Below, in pieces: positions 1 through 29,427 of a stretch of 29,427 nucleotides of DNA. A model generated the notes under the pieces. It worked only from the letters and a program-made list of their open reading frames with translations, had not been told where the DNA came from and did no database searches. The position numbers and the translations under genes are program-made. The stretch covers positions 1-29,427 of IMG/VR virus record IMGVR_UViG_3300012692_000165; one strand, written 5' to 3'. How positions within the stretch are numbered: position 1 is the stretch's first letter; every line of letters starts with the position of its first letter. The stretch is from a virus.

Positions 1-32
1 ATCCACTGCTTCTTAAAACAAAACAGCCCTGT

Positions 33-196
33 CCGTTCGGCTCACGGCAGAGTGAGCCTCAAGCGAACGGCGCCGTTGAGACGAACTACGGTTTACCCAA
101 TGGCAGCCTTTAAGGGCTGCCTTTAACCCATAGGGTTAGGCGCTGCAGGCGCCCCCCAAATACAACCCAAGGGTTGCCCATAGGCAACGCTTCGCG
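33..196 (+). promoter_or_regulatory. Tandem hairpin array in the leader of the terminase gene
   Basis: This gene-free leader holds a row of inverted repeats. A compound stem pairs 33-38 with 65-70 and 39-45 with 52-58. GGCAGCC (102-108) pairs with GGCTGCC (115-121), followed by TTT. TAACCC-ATA-GGGTTA spans 124-138, GGCGC-TGCAG-GCGCC spans 139-153, CAACC-CAAG-GGTTG spans 163-176, GTTGCC-CATA-GGCAAC spans 173-188, and a small CGC-TTC-GCG spans 188-196. The 163-176 and 173-188 stems share bases and cannot form together, and the AACCC/GGGTT arms recur, so alternative folds are possible. The repeats are seen directly. A role as packaging (cos/pac) site, structured 5' leader or attenuator is inference from position next to terL. 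Confidence 0.6.
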
Positions 197-213
197 GTAG
201 GAGAAATAGGTTT

Positions 214-2130
214 ATGGCTAAACCAAAGTCAAACAACTATAAACTTGCCCCAGAGGCAACTTTATCCGCCCCAGAGGCAAAGAAGCGCCTTATCGCGCTG
301 ATTGCCGATGGAGTGAAGATTGAAGACGCTTGCCGCGCAGTCGGCAAGAGCGTCAAGTCGTATGAGTATTATCGCGTCTCCGACCCGCAGTTTAAAGAAG
401 CAGTGGATCTTTCACGCGTCATCCAGAAGCGAAAAGGCGTAATCAGCGAAGATGACGCGAACATTAGTTTCGAGGACTTTCGGGCAAAGTATTTAAACTC
501 CCAGACCTTTCCTCACCAGCGCAACATCACCTCACTTCTTGAAGAAGGTGAGCCAGCCTGGCTTCACGGCAATATGACCTATGAGCCAGGATTTAAGAAT
601 TACGTTCTTGTCAACATGCCACCTGAGCATGCCAAGTCCATGACAGTCTCCATTGACTATGTGACATATCGAATCGTCACAAATCCCAATGTAAGAATTA
701 AACTTGTATCTAAGACTCAGGCTATGGCCAAGGAATTTCTCTACGCCATCAAGCAACGCTTGACCAGTCCGCAGTGGGCAGAACTTCAGCGTCGCTATGC
801 TCCCGCCGAAGGTTTTAAGGCTACCGCTGAGAAGTGGACGCAAGATGCCATCTACCTTGAGCGTGACTCAGGTGAAAAGGATCCTACCGTCCAAGCCCTT
901 GGTATCGGTGGACAAATCTACGGTGCGCGTGCCGATCTAATCATCCTTGATGACTGTGTGACTCTTGCCAACGCTGGCGAGTATGAGAAGCAGATCCGAT
1001 GGATCCAACAGGAAGTTTTAACTCGTGTTGGTCCTACAGGTAAGATCCTCGTCGTAGGTACCCGCGTTGATCCTATGGATCTATACCGCGAAATGCGTAA
1101 CCCTGAACGGTACCCAGATAACAAGTCCCCGTGGACATATCTGGCTATGCCAGCCGTACTCGAATTTGACGATGATCCTGAAAAGTGGATCACGTTATGG
1201 CCAAAGTCTGATCGGCCATGGGATACTGATGAAACTCCAGCGGATGAAGATGGATTGTATCCGCGCTGGTCTGGTCCACACCTTCGTCGTCGCAGAGGCT
1301 TAATTGACCCAAAGACTTGGGCTATGGTTTACCAGCAGCAAGATGTTGAGTCAACCGCCATCTTTGCTCCTGACTGCGTACGCGGATCAGTTTCAGGTAT
1401 GCGAGCCATCGGCCCGCTTATTCCTGGCGCACCTGGTCATCCAGATAATTTGAACAGCCAATACATTGTTGCTTCAATGGATCCAGCAATGTCAGGTGAC
1501 ACATTCTCTGTCATCATGTCAGGCGATAGAACCACAGGCAAGCGTTACCTGCTAGAAGCATCGCGCATGCCAGCACCTACACCACAGCAGATCAGAGACT
1601 TGATCTTCCACTGGACTGAGAAGTATCAGCCAAAGGTGTGGGTAATTGAGAAAAACGCTTTCCAGTTGTTCTTGACACAAGATGAAAAGATCAACCAATT
1701 CTTAGCCTCACGCGGTATTCGCCTCGTTCAGCACTACACAGGTGCGAACAAGATGGATGCTGAATTTGGCGTAGCCTCAATGGCACCACTATTCGGCTCG
1801 GTTGACAGCCAAGGCAAGCATCAAAAGAATAATCTCTTGGAACTGCCACGAGCCGATAACGAACATATCAAGGCTCTCATCGAGCAATTGATTACCTGGT
1901 CAGCAGGTACTAAAAATAAACAAGACGGTCCGATGGCCCTCTGGTTTGCAGAAACGCAGATGCGTGACTACATCAACCAAGCAGGCGCATATGGCGGAAC
2001 GTTCGTCAAGAATCCATTTGCCACTCGCAACCAGTTGGCTTCACGCAAAGTAATCAACTTGGAAGAATGGCAACAAATGCAGGAGAAACTTGCATCTAAC
2101 GGGGGATACATAAGTGGCAATAGATATTAA
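214..2130 (+). CDS. terL: Terminase large subunit with N-terminal helix-turn-helix domain
   Basis: ATPase/nuclease motor that pumps phage DNA into the prohead and cuts it. Residues about 21-68 look like a small-terminase-style helix-turn-helix (IEDACRAVGKS, then an SDPQF.EAVD motif). The ATPase has a deviant Walker A, PPEHAKS at 136-142, a Walker B LIILDD at 242-247, and a GTR coupling motif near 282. The RNase H-like nuclease begins with SMDPAMSGD (D423), a second acid in VIEKNAF (about E479), and a third in QDGPMALWFAE near the C terminus. The start has AGGAG about ten bases upstream. At 638 aa it is longer than many TerL proteins, which fits the added N-terminal domain. It overlaps the portal gene by 17 bases. 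Confidence 0.93.
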   Translation: MAKPKSNNYKLAPEATLSAPEAKKRLIALIADGVKIEDACRAVGKSVKSYEYYRVSDPQFKEAVDLSRVIQKRKGVISEDDANISFEDFRAKYLNSQTFPHQRNITSLLEEGEPAWLHGNMTYEPGFKNYVLVNMPPEHAKSMTVSIDYVTYRIVTNPNVRIKLVSKTQAMAKEFLYAIKQRLTSPQWAELQRRYAPAEGFKATAEKWTQDAIYLERDSGEKDPTVQALGIGGQIYGARADLIILDDCVTLANAGEYEKQIRWIQQEVLTRVGPTGKILVVGTRVDPMDLYREMRNPERYPDNKSPWTYLAMPAVLEFDDDPEKWITLWPKSDRPWDTDETPADEDGLYPRWSGPHLRRRRGLIDPKTWAMVYQQQDVESTAIFAPDCVRGSVSGMRAIGPLIPGAPGHPDNLNSQYIVASMDPAMSGDTFSVIMSGDRTTGKRYLLEASRMPAPTPQQIRDLIFHWTEKYQPKVWVIEKNAFQLFLTQDEKINQFLASRGIRLVQHYTGANKMDAEFGVASMAPLFGSVDSQGKHQKNNLLELPRADNEHIKALIEQLITWSAGTKNKQDGPMALWFAETQMRDYINQAGAYGGTFVKNPFATRNQLASRKVINLEEWQQMQEKLASNGGYISGNRY

Positions 2131-4366: not shown

Positions 4367-4834
4367 ATGCCACAGGCAGCAAAGCCAGCAATGATTTCAG
4401 GCCCAGGGGCTATGAGCCAAAGAACCGATGGCGGACCAGCATCAAAGCAAGCAGTACGTTACATCTCAGGAATGCCTAATTACGGCGATGGCCAAGAATT
4501 AGCAGACCTACAAGCATCGGCACCAATGTCTGCAAGTGGTGCGCCAGCATCTCAACCTGCTCAAGCAAGCGGCGGAGAGCCAGCACAGCAATCACAGATC
4601 ATCCCTATTGATGCTCCAACGCAACGCCCAGGCGAGCCTGTCACAGCAGGCGCTGCAAGCGGCCCTGGACCAGGACCTGAAGTGCTACATGGCACACCAC
4701 AGGCTGAGCAACAAGGCTATCAAAACGCTTTAGTATTGCTTAACCAATTAGGCGATAGCGCCTCTGTACAAGTTAAGCAAATTCGTAATGCTCTGGCTGC
4801 TCATATGAACAATATGGCGGGTATCCAGAAGTAA
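4367..4834 (+). CDS. Pro/Ala/Gln-rich hypothetical protein
   Basis: A 155-aa protein with a good ribosome site (GAGGGAGAG) before the ATG. The N terminus carries a short SQRTDGGPASKQ segment followed by YGDGQELADLQASAPM, the style of a small protein often found beside portal genes in related phages. Residues about 50-115 are low-complexity Pro, Ala, Gly and Gln, and the C-terminal 40 residues are predicted helical. It is likely virion-associated or an assembly factor; the function is not evident. The stop codon overlaps the next start by one base (TAATG). Confidence 0.68.
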   Translation: MPQAAKPAMISGPGAMSQRTDGGPASKQAVRYISGMPNYGDGQELADLQASAPMSASGAPASQPAQASGGEPAQQSQIIPIDAPTQRPGEPVTAGAASGPGPGPEVLHGTPQAEQQGYQNALVLLNQLGDSASVQVKQIRNALAAHMNNMAGIQK

Positions 4835-7800
4835 TGGCTACTGATAACACAAACATTTCTCCTGACGCAGCAAACCTTAATAACAATTTGACTGCATTAG
4901 GACAAAGCGGACATGGCTGGCTTGACCCAACTCTACAGGTTGGTCTTGCCCAAAATGCTGGCAGCACGCAAAATGCTGTTACAACCGCTGGCATTTATCA
5001 GAATGTCATGAACAATACGCCTAACAGCATTCCAAACAAATACATGGATCCTTCGCTTAGTGCGAAGCCAGGTCCAGCAACTACCGCTTTGGCAACTGTT
5101 ACCAACACACATGGCCCAATTCCTTTTACGCCAGAAGACATTACAGGCATCCAAAAAAAGATGCAGGCTATGGGCTTTGGTGTTGGCCTACCTACTGGCA
5201 CATGGAACAGCGCTTGGCAAAGTGCATGGCAGCAAAACAACTATGCAAACCTTACAAAGCCTGGCGTAGGCAATGTAGATTCTTTTAAACTTTTTAAAAG
5301 CATTCTTAATGAATTGTCTCCATCTAATTGGTTACCTACAGATGTACATGCTGTAGCGCATTTCGTTACATCTATGGCACAACCAATTCGTCAAATGGTT
5401 GCCGATACTGTCGGTAACACAATTGCAGATTTTGGTTATGGCAAAGGCGCAACGCCTGAAGAAAACCACGCAATGGCTGTGGCTGCTGTAGAAAATGCCC
5501 TTGGTGGCAAGATGACTGCACAGCAAATTGAAAACATTGGCATGACTCGCCGTAGCATTGAAGATATTGGTAACCTATTTACCCTTGTTATGCTTAAAGG
5601 TGCAGGTGGAAGCCTGCTTAAGTCAGCAAGTGTAATTGGTAAAGGCTTGGCAGAATCTGCTGGCGCAGAGGCTGAAGCGGGTACGCTTAACGGTCTTGCT
5701 GCAGGAGCCAAAGCATTGGTGCAAAACCCATCAATGCTTGTTACTAAATCACTTCCTGAAGAATTTGCTAACGCTCCAAAGTTGACAATTGTTAAAAGCC
5801 TAGCAAATGCCGCTGCTAATTCAGCAAGCGGTGTAGGTGTATTTAGCAAATTTACTTCACCAATTGCTTCTCGTATTGCACCAGCGTTAGAATCGCTTGC
5901 ATCTGAAGATGGCACATATTATGCTGGTAAGCAGGCTATCGCCTCAACCATGCGTAACCCACTTCGTGCTGGATTAAGCGCATTACAAACACGCGGATCA
6001 GCCCTTGGTCTTGGATTGCTTGGACAGACTGAAGTGGAAAAAGCGCTTGGTCAGCAACCAGCATTTGACGCTACCAAAGTAGGGCCATATCAAGGCATTT
6101 TTGGCAATGCTCTTAATGTAATTTCTCTTGCATCTGGTTCTGTTGCAGAGCCTTTAAAGGTAAGCACATCCCTTGGCAATACAGTGTCTGCTACCCATGA
6201 AGCAGTTACTAATGCCCTTGGTCCTATCGGCTTTGACACAGTACTTAAAAATGCCCTTGGCATTAAACTAAAAGATTTACAAAAAGGTGTTGGCGAAGAT
6301 TTTGTTAACGATCATTTTATTCGCACAAAACTTCCTCAATACGGCGCATCACACCTTGCTCAGCAAGCAGCACAGATGGAAGTTGATGCTGGCAAGTTTG
6401 AGCGTAACAGCGATGAGTATCAACAACTTGTTCAAAGTTACGAACATGAGATTCTTAACGATCCAGAGTTGCGTGACGCCTCTGTAGAGTCTTTGGTTAA
6501 CAACCCGCATTTGTGGACGCAGATGCTGCGTAATGATTTTATCCGCCAGTTTGGTTCATTGGTTCGCAAGAACGGTGTTGCTAAGAAAGATCAACAGGCT
6601 TTCTTTGATGGTCTAAACAACCTCAAGAACGGCCCACATGCTTTCATGGAGCCAATTCTTGACCCAGAGGTTCGCAACCTTGTGCATGGCTCATCTGCTT
6701 CTCGTGCAGTTGAAGACATGGCAACACAGGAATTGTCTAACAAATTTGGCCAACAAACACCGCAATTTTCTAGCAACTTGCTACCATCTGGCAAACCATC
6801 GCCACGCCTTATGGCTGTTCACCGCGATGTAAGTGATTTTGCCCCATCAGGTTCAGATCTTGCTCGCACAACAAAGTACGGCAAAGGCGTTGTAGCAACA
6901 GAAGATCCTGCGATTGCTGGTCGTGCAAATGCCAATATCTATGCTTTGCGTCACATTGAACCAACAGAGCAACCAGACTTTTTAGATCTTACTAAGAACG
7001 ATCGTACAAATCTTCTTGCTGCAAAGATTAAAGATTTTGCAAACAATCAAGAAATGAATGTCAAGCCTGGCGATATTACTCCTGAGTATAAAACGCTACA
7101 GGGCTTGCTTAAAAACCCAGTTGATACAACTGGACAAAAGATTATTGACGCATATCGTGACGCTTTGCGTGCTGGTGGACAGTTAAACAAAGATCAGATT
7201 GACCAACGCATAGATCAACTTACTGGTCAGTTTATGGTTGAAAACAAGATTACTGGCATGAAGTATAGTGACGCTAAATACGGCACACAGACTTTGGTAC
7301 GCCCTGATAAGGCAATGGCTAATATGATTAAGCCAAGCCCAGATCTAAGCAAAGATAAACTTCTTTCTTCATACCTAGTGCATAACAATGTCAACGGTCT
7401 TGGCACCATTGGTGTTGCCCGCAAAGATACTATTCTTGCACAGGATGCCATCCGTGAGGCTAAGAAAGTCTTTAGCCAACTTAAAAAGGCTGGCTATGGC
7501 GATGATGCTGATGCTGCTCGTTCTACACTAGAACTAGAAGCAATCAGCAAGCAACGCGGCATTAAGATGGATACAACACCATTGCCTCGTATGCAGAATG
7601 TTGCTGAAGATCCTAAACTTGTTAAAATTACCAATGATGCTCGTGATACTCTTATCAAGAAGTTTGACAAATCTAATAACGATTTAACTCGTCTTGATCC
7701 AGTTCAACTGGCTTCATTGATGTGGCGTGAAGCACGTTTGCGTGCAAGCGAAGCGTATCTTCCTGCCGAAAAACCAGCAGGTCTTAGCGAAGCCAAGTGG

Positions 7801-9963
7801 AATAACGCCAAGGCTGCATTTGAAGAAGCAGACCGTAAAGGCTATCGCATTGCCCTTGGCACAGATATTGGCCATGGCTACGAAAAGCCATTGCTTCCAA
7901 ACTATGTTGTAAATCAACGCACATCCTTGCTACGCAAGGCTGCTATGCGTTTTGGGCTTGATACAACAAAAGTCAGCGATTTGTCAGTTGCTAATGCTCG
8001 CCGCAACAATGTTGTTGACGAAATTAACAAAGTGCTTGGCAAAGATGTTCACCCTACACTTGGTGACACGGGTGAGTCAATCTACTCACGCCTGCTTCAA
8101 GGCGCACAGAGCAGTTTGTTTGATAAGACAACAGTTACTTCAAGCCAAAAGGCTTTAAAGAGACTGCAAAAGATCCAAGGCCTTGATACAAATAGTAAGA
8201 CATACCAAGATCTTGAAGAAGAACTTAACGCTGCACGCAACAAGGAAGCAGAGATTAACCGCTCTGCTCACCAGATCCGCGACTTAAGCCTTAAGCAAAT
8301 GACGCAGATTTTGCAACGTTCTGTAGATCCAGCCGATATTACTGGCGTGCCTATTCCTGGTTATGCCAAGGCAGATGCTCAAAAGATTGCCCGTGCTGTG
8401 CTAGTCGGCTATGCCAAGACGCCAACATCTTTATACGGTATTTCAAAAATTGAAGATTTTGTTCGCGCATCTGGCGCTATGTTGGCAAACCAAACTGCAT
8501 CATTTATGGGCGAGGCTCCGCTACTTAAAAAGTTTAAGATTGGCGAAGGTCCACTTATCAATACATTGGCTTCATTGCCAAATGATCTTGCTCGCCTACG
8601 CGACAAGTGGCGTTTTGATAACAACCCAATTTTCTCATTCCGTCGTCTTGCCAAGACAAACCTTAAGGCAGCGATTGAAGGCGTGCCACCAACAATGAAT
8701 CCGTATGCAACGCTTAATCGCATGGGTAAAGTTGACGAGGCAATGGAAGTGCTAAACCGCACAATGCCAGATGTGTACAAAGCGCAAAAAGAACTTGAAC
8801 CATTGGAAAAACTTTTGGTTCAAAACGACCGTTTCAACATTTACAATCCTGGCCATAATATGATGTGGCAGGCGTACAATCTCAAGCAACTTGGTAAGAC
8901 AGATGCTGAGATTACAAAGGCTCTAAACAAGATCAACACATACGGCGACCGTACGCCTCTTGAGCGTACAGTCAACACGATCTTTTACCCATTCTCGTTT
9001 AACAAGACTTTGTACCGCAACATTGGTGGCTATCTACTAGACAACCCTGGTCATTCGTTATTGATTGACGCTGGCTTTAACCTTTACAGCCATTACAACA
9101 AAAATAACGCTATTGGTAACTGGATTGATACACACGCTCCTTTGCTTGTTGAATTGCAGAAATTAAACGCATTTGAACATGGCGCTGGTCTTGGACAATT
9201 TGGCGGTATTAACGCACCATATCTAAGCCCGCTAATGAACCTGTTTTCGCCACAACGCATTCAACCATCACAGGCTAAAGATGCTATTTCAACTATGATA
9301 AATCTTGTTCCAGCATTGTCTGAATTAAACAAGATTTTGTTTAACTATCAATCTTCAACTGGTACCGCAAACTTAAAAGGCACAGGCGAAGAAACTTTGC
9401 ATGTTGGATATTGGGCATTAAAAAATCTTGGCGAGCATGCCAAAGACCTTTTTGACCATCAAAAGCGTATTGCTTATCAGCCAATGATGACTACCGAAGC
9501 GCAAATAAAGGCTGGCGAGCAAACTGTTACAATGCTTAAAACACAGTTGGCATCGCTTATGGGTACCAGCGAAGTATGGCCAAATAGCCCTGCGGTACCA
9601 GCGTCTATTCGTGGCAAAAAGTACGATGCATCAAGTTTTGGTCAATTTGCTCATACGCTATTTCCAGCCTATGACCCAACTGCTGGAACAGCAATTGCTC
9701 TTGAGAAAAATCAAAAAGCACTTGATTATGTTGCTTCTTTGGAAGGCACTTCTCGTTACAATTTTTATAGCCAGTTCCAAAAAACTGCTATAAGTGCAAT
9801 TCAAAAACTGCACAAAACAAATGATCCAGCAACAATTCAAAATATTGTAGATCCGCTTCGTCAAGCAGCCACTTACATGGCTGAAGCCGATAGCCAGTTC
9901 TTAAATTTCTACAACAAATACTATGAATCAGCGTTAGGTCCAATTGAGGGGTTGAGCAAATAA
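4834..9963 (+). CDS. Giant (1709 aa) putative internal or ejected virion protein
   Basis: The largest gene here, taking 5.1 kb. No enzyme family can be assigned with confidence. Residues about 96-135 (an IQKKMQAMGFGVG segment followed by TGTWNSAWQSAWQQ) resemble a peptidoglycan-binding repeat. Residues about 240-420 contain several Gly/Ala-rich, weakly hydrophobic helices that could insert into a membrane. Residues about 1377-1421 hold an FYPFSFNKTLYRNIGGYLL segment like a PF-motif seen near the C terminus of other very large phage virion proteins. The rest is mostly charged helix. In podoviruses a large protein of this kind is commonly carried in the capsid and ejected with DNA, so I infer an ejection role. 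It starts by a TAATG overlap and ends the same way with the next gene. Confidence 0.72.
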   Translation: MATDNTNISPDAANLNNNLTALGQSGHGWLDPTLQVGLAQNAGSTQNAVTTAGIYQNVMNNTPNSIPNKYMDPSLSAKPGPATTALATVTNTHGPIPFTPEDITGIQKKMQAMGFGVGLPTGTWNSAWQSAWQQNNYANLTKPGVGNVDSFKLFKSILNELSPSNWLPTDVHAVAHFVTSMAQPIRQMVADTVGNTIADFGYGKGATPEENHAMAVAAVENALGGKMTAQQIENIGMTRRSIEDIGNLFTLVMLKGAGGSLLKSASVIGKGLAESAGAEAEAGTLNGLAAGAKALVQNPSMLVTKSLPEEFANAPKLTIVKSLANAAANSASGVGVFSKFTSPIASRIAPALESLASEDGTYYAGKQAIASTMRNPLRAGLSALQTRGSALGLGLLGQTEVEKALGQQPAFDATKVGPYQGIFGNALNVISLASGSVAEPLKVSTSLGNTVSATHEAVTNALGPIGFDTVLKNALGIKLKDLQKGVGEDFVNDHFIRTKLPQYGASHLAQQAAQMEVDAGKFERNSDEYQQLVQSYEHEILNDPELRDASVESLVNNPHLWTQMLRNDFIRQFGSLVRKNGVAKKDQQAFFDGLNNLKNGPHAFMEPILDPEVRNLVHGSSASRAVEDMATQELSNKFGQQTPQFSSNLLPSGKPSPRLMAVHRDVSDFAPSGSDLARTTKYGKGVVATEDPAIAGRANANIYALRHIEPTEQPDFLDLTKNDRTNLLAAKIKDFANNQEMNVKPGDITPEYKTLQGLLKNPVDTTGQKIIDAYRDALRAGGQLNKDQIDQRIDQLTGQFMVENKITGMKYSDAKYGTQTLVRPDKAMANMIKPSPDLSKDKLLSSYLVHNNVNGLGTIGVARKDTILAQDAIREAKKVFSQLKKAGYGDDADAARSTLELEAISKQRGIKMDTTPLPRMQNVAEDPKLVKITNDARDTLIKKFDKSNNDLTRLDPVQLASLMWREARLRASEAYLPAEKPAGLSEAKWNNAKAAFEEADRKGYRIALGTDIGHGYEKPLLPNYVVNQRTSLLRKAAMRFGLDTTKVSDLSVANARRNNVVDEINKVLGKDVHPTLGDTGESIYSRLLQGAQSSLFDKTTVTSSQKALKRLQKIQGLDTNSKTYQDLEEELNAARNKEAEINRSAHQIRDLSLKQMTQILQRSVDPADITGVPIPGYAKADAQKIARAVLVGYAKTPTSLYGISKIEDFVRASGAMLANQTASFMGEAPLLKKFKIGEGPLINTLASLPNDLARLRDKWRFDNNPIFSFRRLAKTNLKAAIEGVPPTMNPYATLNRMGKVDEAMEVLNRTMPDVYKAQKELEPLEKLLVQNDRFNIYNPGHNMMWQAYNLKQLGKTDAEITKALNKINTYGDRTPLERTVNTIFYPFSFNKTLYRNIGGYLLDNPGHSLLIDAGFNLYSHYNKNNAIGNWIDTHAPLLVELQKLNAFEHGAGLGQFGGINAPYLSPLMNLFSPQRIQPSQAKDAISTMINLVPALSELNKILFNYQSSTGTANLKGTGEETLHVGYWALKNLGEHAKDLFDHQKRIAYQPMMTTEAQIKAGEQTVTMLKTQLASLMGTSEVWPNSPAVPASIRGKKYDASSFGQFAHTLFPAYDPTAGTAIALEKNQKALDYVASLEGTSRYNFYSQFQKTAISAIQKLHKTNDPATIQNIVDPLRQAATYMAEADSQFLNFYNKYYESALGPIEGLSK

Positions 9964-15124: not shown

Positions 15125-17379
<2,255 letters not shown>

Positions 17380-17382
<3 letters not shown>

Positions 17383-17398
17383 TAAGATTGCGCTATGG
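17380..17398 (+). promoter_or_regulatory. Putative extended -10 promoter giving a leaderless glycosyltransferase mRNA
   Basis: TGA-TAAGAT (17380-17388) reads as an extended -10 element (TGN-TANNNT), followed by six bases (TGCGCT) and the ATG at 17395. With usual spacing, transcription would start at or next to the A of the ATG, a common leaderless layout in actinobacteria. No good -35 is seen (TTCTGA with a 17-base spacer). The same layout occurs before the integrase, matching at 13 of 19 positions. Confidence 0.5.
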
Positions 17399-18471
17399 TC
17401 AAGATAGCAACCTACTCAATATGTAAGAACGAATCTAAGCATATCCTACGGTGGGTTGAGGCAACAAAAGATGCCGACTATCGCATAGTAGTAGATACTG
17501 GATCTACCGATGGTAGCCAAGATATGCTACGAGCATTGGGTGTAACTGTTCATCAGATTCACCTTAACCCATTTCGCTTTGATGTGGCTCGTAACACAGC
17601 CTTATCACTCGTACCAGAGGATGCTGATGTCTGTCTTATCTTGGATATGGACGAAGTGCCAGAACCGACTTTCTTTAAAAAGGTCAGGAAAAAATGGGTA
17701 CCAGGTTCACATCTTGGCTGGATCAGCATGGATACTGGGCAAAAATGGGAGAGGGACAGGCTTCACTCAAGGTTCGGTTGGTACTGGAAATATCCATGCC
17801 ACGAAGTGCAGTTGTGGTACGGGGAAGGCGATACACGAGATTGCGATATCCGCAATGCCGTTATCCAACACCTACCAGACAATAGTAAATCCAGAGGACA
17901 ATATCTAACGCTGCTAGAAATGGCGGTTAAAGAAAATCCTCAAGATCCACGCATGTGGACATATATGACTCGTGAGTATTACTTCCACCATAGATGGCAA
18001 GATGTCATTGACTCAGCGGAGAAACAAATACCGCTCAATGGTTGGGATGTAGAACAAGCCGTTGTCTGCCGATGGGCAGGTGAGGCTTGCCACCAACTGG
18101 GCTTGCATGAACAAGCCACCGCTTGGTATGACAAAGGTGTACAACTTCTTCCCCGTGAAGGCGAATCGTGGTATGGCGTAGCAATTGACGCATACCGTCG
18201 TGAGGATTGGACAAGGTGTTTAGATGCTTCTATTAACGCTTTGGAACGTCCTCGCTCCGTCCATTACTGCTACGAATCAGCGGTGTGGGACTGGAAAGCC
18301 TATGACCTTGCCTCAATCGCTGCTTACAACCTCAAGCATATTGACGAAGCAATAGTCTTTGCTGAACAAGCCGTAAAGGGCAATGGCGAAGAAACAGAGC
18401 GTATCCAACGCAACCTTAACTTCTTTAGACAGGTGAAGAATGCCACATCAACACACAGTAAAAATCCTTGA
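17395..18471 (+). CDS. Family 2-type glycosyltransferase with C-terminal TPR-like helices
   Basis: A 358-aa enzyme expected to transfer a sugar from a nucleotide-sugar. The N-terminal GT-A fold starts with MVKIATYSICKNE, then VVDTGSTDGS (32-41), which contacts the nucleotide, and LILDMDEVPE (81-90), whose DMDE at 84-87 supplies the metal-binding acids. A PCHEVQLWYG segment follows. Residues about 180-345 are paired helices like tetratricopeptide repeats. No signal peptide or membrane segment is seen. It has no clear ribosome site but a leaderless-type promoter. Possible acceptors are the Thr-rich collagen-like fibre just upstream or a host surface polymer; neither is shown by sequence. It overlaps the next gene by 32 bases. 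Confidence 0.85.
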   Translation: MVKIATYSICKNESKHILRWVEATKDADYRIVVDTGSTDGSQDMLRALGVTVHQIHLNPFRFDVARNTALSLVPEDADVCLILDMDEVPEPTFFKKVRKKWVPGSHLGWISMDTGQKWERDRLHSRFGWYWKYPCHEVQLWYGEGDTRDCDIRNAVIQHLPDNSKSRGQYLTLLEMAVKENPQDPRMWTYMTREYYFHHRWQDVIDSAEKQIPLNGWDVEQAVVCRWAGEACHQLGLHEQATAWYDKGVQLLPREGESWYGVAIDAYRREDWTRCLDASINALERPRSVHYCYESAVWDWKAYDLASIAAYNLKHIDEAIVFAEQAVKGNGEETERIQRNLNFFRQVKNATSTHSKNP

Positions 18472-22908: not shown

Positions 22909-23900
22909 TGTCACGCGCACAACAAACTTCAACAGTTGAGCAGAATACGGGTGGGGCAGTAGCGCCGTTCTTGGCGGGTAAGAATAAGATCATCAATGGT
23001 GACTTTGGCATCTGGCAGCGCGGTACATCCTTCTCAAATCCTGCTGCTGGAACTTTTGTTGCAGACCGTTTTTATCTTGATTATTCGGGAACAATCGGAA
23101 CAACAACAATTTCCCAACAAACTACGCCAACGGTTATTGCCACAGGAATAGACACCGCATCATTCTTGCAATGGTCAAGCACCGTAGCAGGTTCTTCACA
23201 AACCTATAATGTGCTATCTCAAAGAATAGAAAATGTTGCCACGCTTGCAGACCAACTAGTCACTTTTAGTTTCTATGCAAAAGCATCATCAAGCACCGCG
23301 TTGAGCCAGATTTACCTACATCAGAACTTTGGCTCTGGCGGTTCTTCTGAGATTTATTACAACCTTGGAAGCGCCACCATCACAACTTCGTGGGCTAGAT
23401 ATTCATTTACCACAACCCTTGGAAGCATAAGCGGAAAGACAATCGGCGCAGGTTCATTCTTGCGAGCTTTTATTGGCGCACCACTCAACTCAACATTCAC
23501 AATCAGCACTTGGGGATGGCAGGTAGAAGCAGGCTCAGTAGCCACACCTTTCACCACCGCATCAGGCACACTCCAAGGAGAGTTAGCCTTGTGCCAACGG
23601 TATTATCAAGTGTATGGGATTAATGATTTTTTTGGTCAAGTAGTAACGGGAACTTCGGCAAACTTTTATCGTTATTTTCCAGTTTCAATGCGAGTTACCC
23701 CAACCCCAACTGCACCAACTGGTACTTTTACCAGTTATATCAATATAACTTATCAAGGTTATGCAACGCCAACTGCTTTATCTGCTAATGGAATTAGCCC
23801 AACTGCATTTTCTCTTTATGCTTCTGGCGCATCTGGATTAACCATTGGTTATCAATGTCAATGGAATGGCGGCAATGTATCCTTGAGTGCGGAGTTATAA
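22908..23900 (+). CDS. Tail fibre 2, paralogue lacking the anchor domain
   Basis: A 330-aa paralogue of the preceding fibre. IINGDFGIWQR lies already near residue 27, so the anchor and linker of fibre 1 are missing. The lectin-like domain shares order and framing motifs: QVEAGSVATPFTTASG, then TLQGELALCQRY, and an end in SAEL. The sequence between motifs differs strongly. It has its own ribosome site (AGAGGTGA). It may be an alternative tip, or a partner that binds fibre 1. Confidence 0.77.
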   Translation: MSRAQQTSTVEQNTGGAVAPFLAGKNKIINGDFGIWQRGTSFSNPAAGTFVADRFYLDYSGTIGTTTISQQTTPTVIATGIDTASFLQWSSTVAGSSQTYNVLSQRIENVATLADQLVTFSFYAKASSSTALSQIYLHQNFGSGGSSEIYYNLGSATITTSWARYSFTTTLGSISGKTIGAGSFLRAFIGAPLNSTFTISTWGWQVEAGSVATPFTTASGTLQGELALCQRYYQVYGINDFFGQVVTGTSANFYRYFPVSMRVTPTPTAPTGTFTSYINITYQGYATPTALSANGISPTAFSLYASGASGLTIGYQCQWNGGNVSLSAEL

Positions 23901-23901
23901 A

Positions 23902-24081
23902 ATGGCTATTACATATCAACCAGTATCGGCAACTGAATACAGTCCAGCATATATTTTGAGATTGAATGAAGATAATACTCAATCATTCATACCGCTAGAC
24001 CCTGCCAATAGCGACTACCAAGCCTACCTAGCCACAATCGCAGCCAACTCTGCGCCACAGGCTAACTCCACAGAGAGTTAA
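23902..24081 (+). CDS. 59-aa fibre companion protein
   Basis: The preferred start is the ATG after GGAG, which sits in the end of fibre 2; an upstream in-frame ATG gives only five extra residues and no ribosome site. The end of the protein, IPLDPANSDYQAYLATIAAN, matches a short motif very common in small phage proteins near fibre genes. It probably assists or decorates the fibre. Confidence 0.65.
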   Translation: MAITYQPVSATEYSPAYILRLNEDNTQSFIPLDPANSDYQAYLATIAANSAPQANSTES

Positions 24082-24086
24082 ATCGG

Positions 24087-24105
24087 TGGTAGTCTTGTCC
24101 TATGG
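24087..24105 (+). promoter_or_regulatory. Putative extended -10 promoter giving a leaderless integrase mRNA
   Basis: TGG-TAGTCT (24087-24095) is an extended -10 type (TGN-TANNNT), followed by TGTCCT and the ATG at 24102. Transcription would start at or near the ATG. A weak -35 match, TCCACA, lies at 24067-24072 with a 17-base spacer. No ribosome site is present, unlike most neighbours. The layout equals that upstream of the glycosyltransferase. Confidence 0.5.
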
Positions 24106-24899
24106 AACTTACACCAATGGACGAGATATACCGTCAGTTAAAAAACCGCTATGATTCATCGGGCTTTAGCCCGTATGTCATTAGAACCGATTGGCAGATC
24201 ATACGCCGCATTGGCGTACATCCTGCAGTGGCTAAGCGAGAAGACTTAGAAAAGATCGTATTGGCTGCTACCAAGCAGTCCACGAAGGCTAACTATGTTT
24301 CTCGCTTACGCTCAATCTATAAGCACTTAAACAAACTTGGCCTAGTCAATGGCAACAACCCAGCGGTTGATCTGCCAGATGTAAAGGCTGGCAGGGGCGT
24401 ACCTAAGCCTGTTACCAAGGGCGAATATGCAAAACTGTTAGCAGAGGCTAATCAGCCATATAAAGACTGGTTTATTCTAGGTGGTATGGCAGGCTTGCGC
24501 TGCATGGAAGTAGCCAAGATCCGTGGTGCTGACTTGATTGAGACTGAAGATGGTCCGATGCTTCAAGTGCTAGGCAAAGGAAACACTGACCTAATTGTAC
24601 CTATCAGCCCCGTAGTGGCTGACATGATTAAATCTCATAACACCTTGGGTCGTTTGTGGGAAATTGATCCTAACAAGTTTTCCAAAAAAGCAGCCGATGA
24701 GATGCGTCGCATCCTCGGACCAGAGGCTAAGCATTTCCACAGCCTTAGACATTACTTCGCCACCACAATGCTTGAAAAAAGCGGTGGCGATTTGATTGCT
24801 GTTAAAGAACTTATGCGCCACACAAGTGTGGCTACAACGCAAGTTTACACACAACTAGCACATGGGCGAACCAGATCGTTGGTGAACCTTTTAGAATAA
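24102..24899 (+). CDS. Tyrosine recombinase (phage integrase)
   Basis: A 265-aa site-specific recombinase. The N-terminal SAM-like core-binding domain covers about residues 1-95. The catalytic residues are all seen: R133 in GLRCMEVAKIRG, K159 in LGKGNTD, H213 and R216 in HFHSLRHYF, H240 in LMRHTS, and the nucleophile Y249 in TTQVYTQLAHG. There is no large N-terminal arm-binding domain, making it a small, Xer-like type. It lies inside the structural block, between fibre 2 and the nozzle-like gene, on the same strand. No attachment site was recognised beside it. It may integrate the phage, or act on the adjacent fibre cassettes. Confidence 0.93.
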   Translation: MELTPMDEIYRQLKNRYDSSGFSPYVIRTDWQIIRRIGVHPAVAKREDLEKIVLAATKQSTKANYVSRLRSIYKHLNKLGLVNGNNPAVDLPDVKAGRGVPKPVTKGEYAKLLAEANQPYKDWFILGGMAGLRCMEVAKIRGADLIETEDGPMLQVLGKGNTDLIVPISPVVADMIKSHNTLGRLWEIDPNKFSKKAADEMRRILGPEAKHFHSLRHYFATTMLEKSGGDLIAVKELMRHTSVATTQVYTQLAHGRTRSLVNLLE

Positions 24900-29100: not shown

Positions 29101-29427
29101 TTAGCCCTCATCGCCATCGGCGGTGGGGGCTATTTTGTTGTTCCAGTCCTTGTAAATTGCTGTCTTTAGCCTATGGCAATTGGCGCATAATGTCTTTAAA
29201 TTTTCAAGACTATTGTTTTTATTATTGCCGTCTATATGGTCAACATCCAGTTGTGAAGGATGGGTTGGCACGAAGCCACAATGTTCGCACTTGTCTTTCT
29301 TAAACTTTTTCCACGGGGTTTTGTGCTTCTTGTAACTTTTCATACATCGAAATGTTTTTTTATTATTGGAAAGGTTTACGACCTTGATTTTAATTGGCCC
29401 GCATTCCCTGCAAATGGCTGTACGAGC
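29101..29427 (-). CDS. HNH endonuclease, cut by the window edge
   Basis: A minus-strand gene convergent with the late operon. The visible HNH core shows KCEHCGF, DVDHIDGNNKN (metal and catalytic His) and CANCHRLK. An in-frame ATG lies at 29343, but the frame stays open upstream to the edge. The extra 28 codons encode ICRECG and FRC, the start of an N-terminal zinc site usual in phage HNH proteins, so the true start is probably outside the window. At least 108 aa. It may be a free-standing homing endonuclease or a packaging-associated HNH; which is unclear. Confidence 0.85.
   Translation of the reverse strand, partial: ARTAICRECGPIKIKVVNLSNNKKTFRCMKSYKKHKTPWKKFKKDKCEHCGFVPTHPSQLDVDHIDGNNKNNSLENLKTLCANCHRLKTAIYKDWNNKIAPTADGDEG
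29102..29140 (+). terminator. Rho-independent terminator of the late operon
   Basis: Bases 29102-29115 pair with 29119-29132 in a perfect 14-bp stem (two G-U pairs) around the loop ATC, followed by TTTTGTTG. It starts 17 bases after the last plus-strand stop. The same bases encode the C terminus of the minus-strand HNH gene. Confidence 0.85.

Follow-up and report, generated by a model that had tools for sequence, protein, structure and literature searches.

Why should a phage place a long row of hairpins immediately ahead of the gene for its terminase large subunit (terL)? The question is raised by the virus record IMGVR_UViG_3300012692_000165, of which a stretch of 29,427 nt, here called the window, was analyzed. 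A first-pass annotation, made from the letters alone, had described tandem and in part mutually exclusive hairpins at positions 33-196, far denser than anything elsewhere in the window, and had offered a cos/pac region, a switching leader, or a structured RNA as possible explanations. The dense row itself is real. With arms of at least 6 nt and loops of at most 10 nt, the segment contains five non-overlapping perfect inverted repeats, which is the maximum among all 164-nt segments of the window (mean 0.62, SD 0.76), and the RNA fold of positions 1-213 reaches -85.7 kcal/mol (z = -4.29), a value equaled by none of 200 shuffled sequences. The asserted preeminence holds for the inverted repeats but not for the strength of folding: by fold z the leader ranks second among 293 segments of 200 nt, and since positions 24001-24200 obtained a lower z, folding density is not strictly unique to it. 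That other segment is mostly coding, and the overlapping interval 23900-24110 gave only z = -1.9 on refolding.

The left end of the window is not a genuine part of the leader (table 1). In the sister contigs L002 and L006, this place is occupied by TATATATAGGGGTTAAAAC; the promoter that sister contigs carry there, TATATATAGGGG, is absent here because of a chimeric assembly end that takes up bases 1-14 of the window. The sister L002 (41.5 kb), whose TerL is 100% identical to that of the window, contains the late promoter motif CCTTAGTATATATAGGGG only once, just upstream of the leader. Reading toward the leader, this genome presents opposite-strand early-type ORFs and then several hundred noncoding bases, followed by a palindrome of CRP-like type (TGTGACTAACATCACA) and by CCGCCTTAGTATATATAGGGG. 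Such a CRP/GlxR-like palindrome (TGTGA-N6-TCACA, at about 4734-4750 in L002, where it is unique) also lies upstream of the late promoter in relatives, which suggests that a host regulator may control this promoter. On the downstream side, a scan of the plus strand found no terminator-like site between the promoter and terL, and none in 1-29000 comparable to the one strong site near the right end; with only that one, the late genes look like a single operon of ~29 kb headed by the leader. The operon also encodes a 1709-aa protein without a PHROG or Pfam match (4834-9963), a protein with long collagen-like GXT repeats (15472-17382; Pfam Collagen, E = 1.5e-47), downstream of it a TPR-bearing glycosyltransferase of family 2 (17395-18471), and, in an unusual location within the late structural block, a tyrosine integrase (24102-24899).

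A set of 93 non-redundant freshwater leaders was gathered by a TerL search and two RNA patterns. Their mean fold z is -4.6, and 83% of them fall below -3; the corresponding means are -1.7 in the coding sequence of terL and -0.7 in the sequence 490-720 nt upstream. The pattern matches in IMG/VR numbered 105, and all except four are on the terL strand, 148-253 nt before that gene (101/105); two of the four are truncated by the end of a contig or locus yet have leader sequence, and the other two are chance matches without terL. The loss of stems without compensation, named in the first-pass annotation as the result that would speak against its proposal, did not occur among the leaders compared. 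One contig with a related terL (L082) had been binned into a beta-proteobacterial MAG, yet the closest named isolates infect Streptomyces.

Table 1. Features of the terL leader and of the late operon that it heads (positions in the window; paired segments are separated by a slash).
Feature	Positions	Strand	Observation
Assembly chimera at the contig end, no true part of the leader	1-14	.	Identical to the reverse complement of 395-408, inside terL
Core domain D1, long irregular hairpin	33-89	+	Same nested fold is the MFE in 34/36 distinct relatives, as counted by our own reading of the fold list
D1 P1	35-39/82-86	+	GUUCG/CGAAC; compensatory changes
D1 G40.A81 mismatch	40, 81	+	Between P1 and P2
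D1 P2	41-44/77-80	+	CUCA/UGAG
D1 P3	45-48/72-75	+	GGCA/UGCC; compensatory changes
D1 P4	52-53/67-68	+	Compensatory changes
D1 tandem G.A	54-55/65-66	+	GA/GA internal loop
D1 P5	56-57/63-64	+	GC/GC
D1 apical loop	58-62	+	CUCAA; CUCAA or CUCACA among relatives
Conserved GA module GAGC-CUCAA-GCGA	54-66	+	GAGC-CUCA(C)A-GCGA in 91/93 unique leaders
Alternative local hairpin GGCTCAC/GTGAGCC, excludes D1 fold	39-58	+	88% of cells pair; 5/7 pairs (near-)invariant
Hairpin H2 GGCAGCC-TTTAAG-GGCTGCC	102-121	+	At least 14 different self-complementary stem sequences in relatives
Hairpin AACCC-ATA-GGGTT	125-137	+	Close relatives keep part; others lost it
Hairpin H3 GGCGCTGCAGGCGCC	139-153	+	Stem-variable homologues GGGGCT/AGCCCC, GCGCTC/GAGCGC, others
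AACCC-AA-GGGTT, clade-specific, not conserved	164-175	+	Relatives have AACCCAAGTGTT
Domain D3: hairpin AAGGGTTGCC-CATA-GGCAACGCTT, then mini-hairpin CGC-UUC-GCG (188-196)	169-197	+	Stem covaries
terL Shine-Dalgarno AGGAG	199-203	+	10-nt spacing to ATG 214
Start-codon hairpin GGTTT-ATGGCT-AAACC	209-224	+	Fold
terL (large terminase subunit), which opens the late operon	214-2130	+	phrog_38, E = 6.8e-70
Sole strong terminator-like site on the plus strand, end of the late operon	29102-29132	+	14-pair stem, 9 G-C, then TTTTGTTGTT

The pairing of D1 is maintained in spite of changes in its sequence. In P1, the pair types UA/AU and CG/UA vary among the relatives, and L057 and L062 have a two-sided change to GAACG/CGUUC; in P3, the types are GC, AU, and GU, and the L264 class has the two-sided change GACA/UGUC, the pairing being kept in both cases. 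A GA/GA or GGA/GRA internal loop is found in all 48 distinct versions of the conserved module, and the two P4 pairs flanking it are likewise paired in 48/48, with two and three pair types (0 of 5,000 shuffles), a count that is somewhat biased by the choice of the best-pairing match in each leader. All the leaders compared belong to one TerL clade, and such covariation counts are not independent of one another; P2 is near-invariant, so covariation says nothing about it. The GA module is absent from L016 and L017, and P1 and P2 are absent from the most distant class (L077-L080). A covariance model of the domain (R1) has a single match in the 41.5-kb sister genome, at D1, and it also matches, more weakly, the class E leaders that were left out of its construction.

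Two other folds of this domain deserve comment. When applied to the sequence alignment, RNAalifold favored a three-way junction with kissing loops over the nested hairpin. We rejected this junction, because the same complementarity between loops follows from the nested hairpin, which in addition accounts for the conserved GAGCC..GCGA, for the P4 pairs with their changes, and for the G.A pairs. The second fold is the local hairpin GGCTCAC/GTGAGCC (39-45/52-58), which is incompatible with the long hairpin at 35-86 and is present in the MFE fold of the whole L002 leader. It provides a better supported case of mutual exclusion than the pair of hairpins originally proposed, in which the GGTTGCC/GGCAAC stem is conserved but the overlapping AACCC/GGGTT is not. 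This alternative is kept in most classes, and the leader might conceivably be a switching one. As to the strand, a count of GU against AC over all hairpins (65 vs. 66) did not discriminate. The GA/GA motif is stable as RNA, and the opposite strand would carry TC/TC; that the conserved motif is stable only on the terL-sense strand argues for a sense-strand RNA.

The location of the GA module is equally informative. Its distance to the promoter motif is 59 +/- 3 nt (n = 87) and its distance to terL 188 +/- 24 nt; this tight spacing on one side and loose spacing on the other tie D1 to the start of transcription. The downstream part of the leader is more a matter of the clade. The D3 stem occurs as GTTGCC/GGCAAC, GTTACC/GGTAAC, ATTCCC/GGGGAT, or CATGCC/GGCATG, and CGCUUCGCG and UGCUUCGCA alternate among the relatives within this domain. 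The start-codon hairpin belongs to the clade of the window, and elsewhere a hairpin encloses the Shine-Dalgarno sequence (e.g., AATCTC..GGAGATT). In several relatives such as L024, AUCUCAC is a possible partner of GUGGGAU, but its AUCUC part could also form a stem with GAGAU on the Shine-Dalgarno side, and the resulting hairpins exclude one another. Attenuation by an intrinsic terminator within the leader was considered and discarded; there is no T-tract after H2 or H3, and the scan gave no match there.

We conclude, with a probability of roughly three in four, that the region is the structured leader, untranslated and cis-acting, at the 5′ end of the one late transcript of the phage. Of the original suggestions, it is thus the structured RNA that is borne out, by the compensatory changes, the tandem G.A module, the promoter directly upstream, and the lack of a terminator before terL. 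A conserved structure with compensatory changes upstream of one orthologous gene is what characterizes cis-acting leaders and is what we observe here; that the leader is transcribed we infer from the promoter motif directly upstream of it in relatives. Late transcription would start at the TATATATA-GGGG promoter, enter terL, and end at the 29.1-kb terminator. The nascent RNA would fold into the promoter-coupled D1, with its tandem G.A cap and conserved loop, and then into a string of hairpins of conserved stems and variable sequence, the last domain adjoining the ribosome-binding site. D1 could act on the elongating polymerase or bind a phage or host protein, in a put-like antitermination or a comparable function of the late transcript, and the most likely role of the 3′ hairpins would be to damp the translation of terL, because only a few copies of terminase are required, even though terL opens the operon. 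Taken together, the leader probably governs either the synthesis or the translation of this long message.

Could the hairpins instead matter as DNA, in a cos or pac site that is cut or bound by the terminase? The proximity of terL and the mostly perfect Watson-Crick stems are in keeping with such a site, as is the fact that three contigs (the window, L003, and L004) start at nearly the same base; as a cause of this last coincidence, however, natural DNA ends are a less economical candidate than an assembly break at a promoter sequence common to many co-occurring phages. Moreover, the sequence of closely related contigs continues across the region without a break, and its GA/GA mismatches stay unpaired rather than being made palindromic. 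The Streptomyces phages Manuel and Dennebes, whose TerL is 46% identical, possess direct terminal repeats (276 and 254 bp); these stop ~370-390 nt short of terL, and a similar GGGTATATATATANTGGGG promoter lies downstream of their end. The sister genome has a CAAATCGGACA..CCCCAGGGTTNTTAACG-like sequence at the same place (-401), again ahead of the promoter. Most of the other freshwater contigs examined show related AACCC-GGGTT-TTAA sequences in front of theirs as well. The terminus for packaging should, by analogy, lie outside the leader, and the cos/pac proposal appears highly improbable. A terminus-like module, AACCCnnGGGTT-TTTAAC ... CCACCAAAATATTTTTTCTAAATATAGG, occurs ~300-400 nt before terL in L002 (upstream of 4780) and at other loci; it resembles the boundary of the Manuel and Dennebes terminal repeats and is probably the packaging end of the clade. 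It is also very unlikely that the leader is a separate noncoding RNA transcribed with terL, such as the packaging RNA of phi29. Like that RNA, it is a conserved phage RNA from a packaging-related region, adjoining the gene of the packaging ATPase and having a compact conserved fold with its own promoter. But the phi29 pRNA exists as an RNA of its own, with loops that interlock, whereas here there is no terminator before terL (processing could still occur), no match to an Rfam family, and a loop complementarity that is accounted for by nested pairing.

The remaining alternatives concern what a leader of this kind does. It might mainly repress the translation of terL, by occluding the Shine-Dalgarno sequence or the start codon, with relief coming from a phage protein or from TerL itself. 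Operator- and riboswitch-type leaders of phages and bacteria are likewise untranslated, rich in hairpins, and placed beside the ribosome-binding site, with exclusive stems, and both the hairpins enclosing the Shine-Dalgarno sequence or start codon in different clades and the mutually exclusive ones of several relatives fit this scheme, as does the median unpaired probability of the Shine-Dalgarno sequence over 62 relatives (0.41, a raw fold value). We regard it as a tentative possibility, well short of even odds, given that this occlusion is only moderate and that D1, the most conserved part, is tied to the promoter rather than to the start codon. It differs from these known leaders in matching no Rfam family and in having no known ligand or protein. 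A stabilizer shielding the 5′ end of the late mRNA from ribonucleases would be well served by strong hairpins of variable sequence at a fixed place near that end, but would leave the conserved G.A module and loop unexplained, and this role is unlikely.

The most attractive specific role for D1, judged by its position, its size, and the length of the operon, would be a polymerase modification of the put kind, in which the nascent RNA binds the polymerase and lets it pass pause sites and terminators all along the late operon of 29 kb. The put RNAs of HK022 are ~70 nt long and remain effective over at least 10 kb; putL directly follows its promoter (PMC9378689). D1 (~60 nt), likewise part of a phage leader, is comparable in size and closely follows a promoter that heads a long operon, and the fixed short distance of its module from a single promoter, with one strong terminator for the whole ~29 kb, fits such a function. 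However, put consists of two stem-loops (PMC9378689) and serves early operons, whereas D1 precedes late genes and folds, in 34/36 sequences, as one irregular hairpin with tandem G.A; nor did we find the strong internal terminators that would need to be suppressed. This more specific version of the leader hypothesis is therefore advanced with considerable doubt.

At the gathering threshold, Rfam gave no match for the window and 11 relatives; the permissive matches (E <= 5) to SNORD23 (E = 0.1) and Plasmid_R1162 (E = 2.3) are both on the minus strand and were dismissed as chance. A search of isolated phages for the leader returned only a 28-nt chance match, and no description of it was found in the open-licence PMC literature. 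The leader is a previously uncatalogued RNA family within a known kind, the structured phage leaders. Comparable terL leaders are found in the Streptomyces Beephvirinae (Manuel, Dennebes, and Immanuel3): in most of them, though a search of Immanuel3 gave no such motif, TATATATA-NNGGGG precedes a leader of ~220 nt that is rich in hairpins and followed by terL, and Manuel and Dennebes have CRP-like TGTGA-TCACA sites upstream. They differ in their conserved elements (CTCGGGATCATTCCTCC and GCCGCACGGC), and model R1 found neither D1 nor the GA module in them. The element CTCGGGATCATTCCTCC is common to the terL leaders of Streptomyces phages (L083, L085, and L312-L319); it resembles the 3′ end of 16S rRNA (GGATCACCTCC) and could pair with a Shine-Dalgarno sequence.

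These results reveal an RNA family that practically all sampled members of a common clade of lake phages possess, always ahead of the packaging gene. It is conceivable, if rather unlikely, that D1 is the first representative of a new class of phage RNAs that lie close to the promoter and act on the polymerase in late transcription; such an RNA would be an antiterminator, working with or without a protein and based on a hairpin with tandem G.A, and a large clade of freshwater phages would use it. A small, promoter-locked, conserved RNA is in any case a testable candidate for how long late operons are run from one promoter, and the cultured Streptomyces relatives with analogous leaders open this broader question to laboratory testing.
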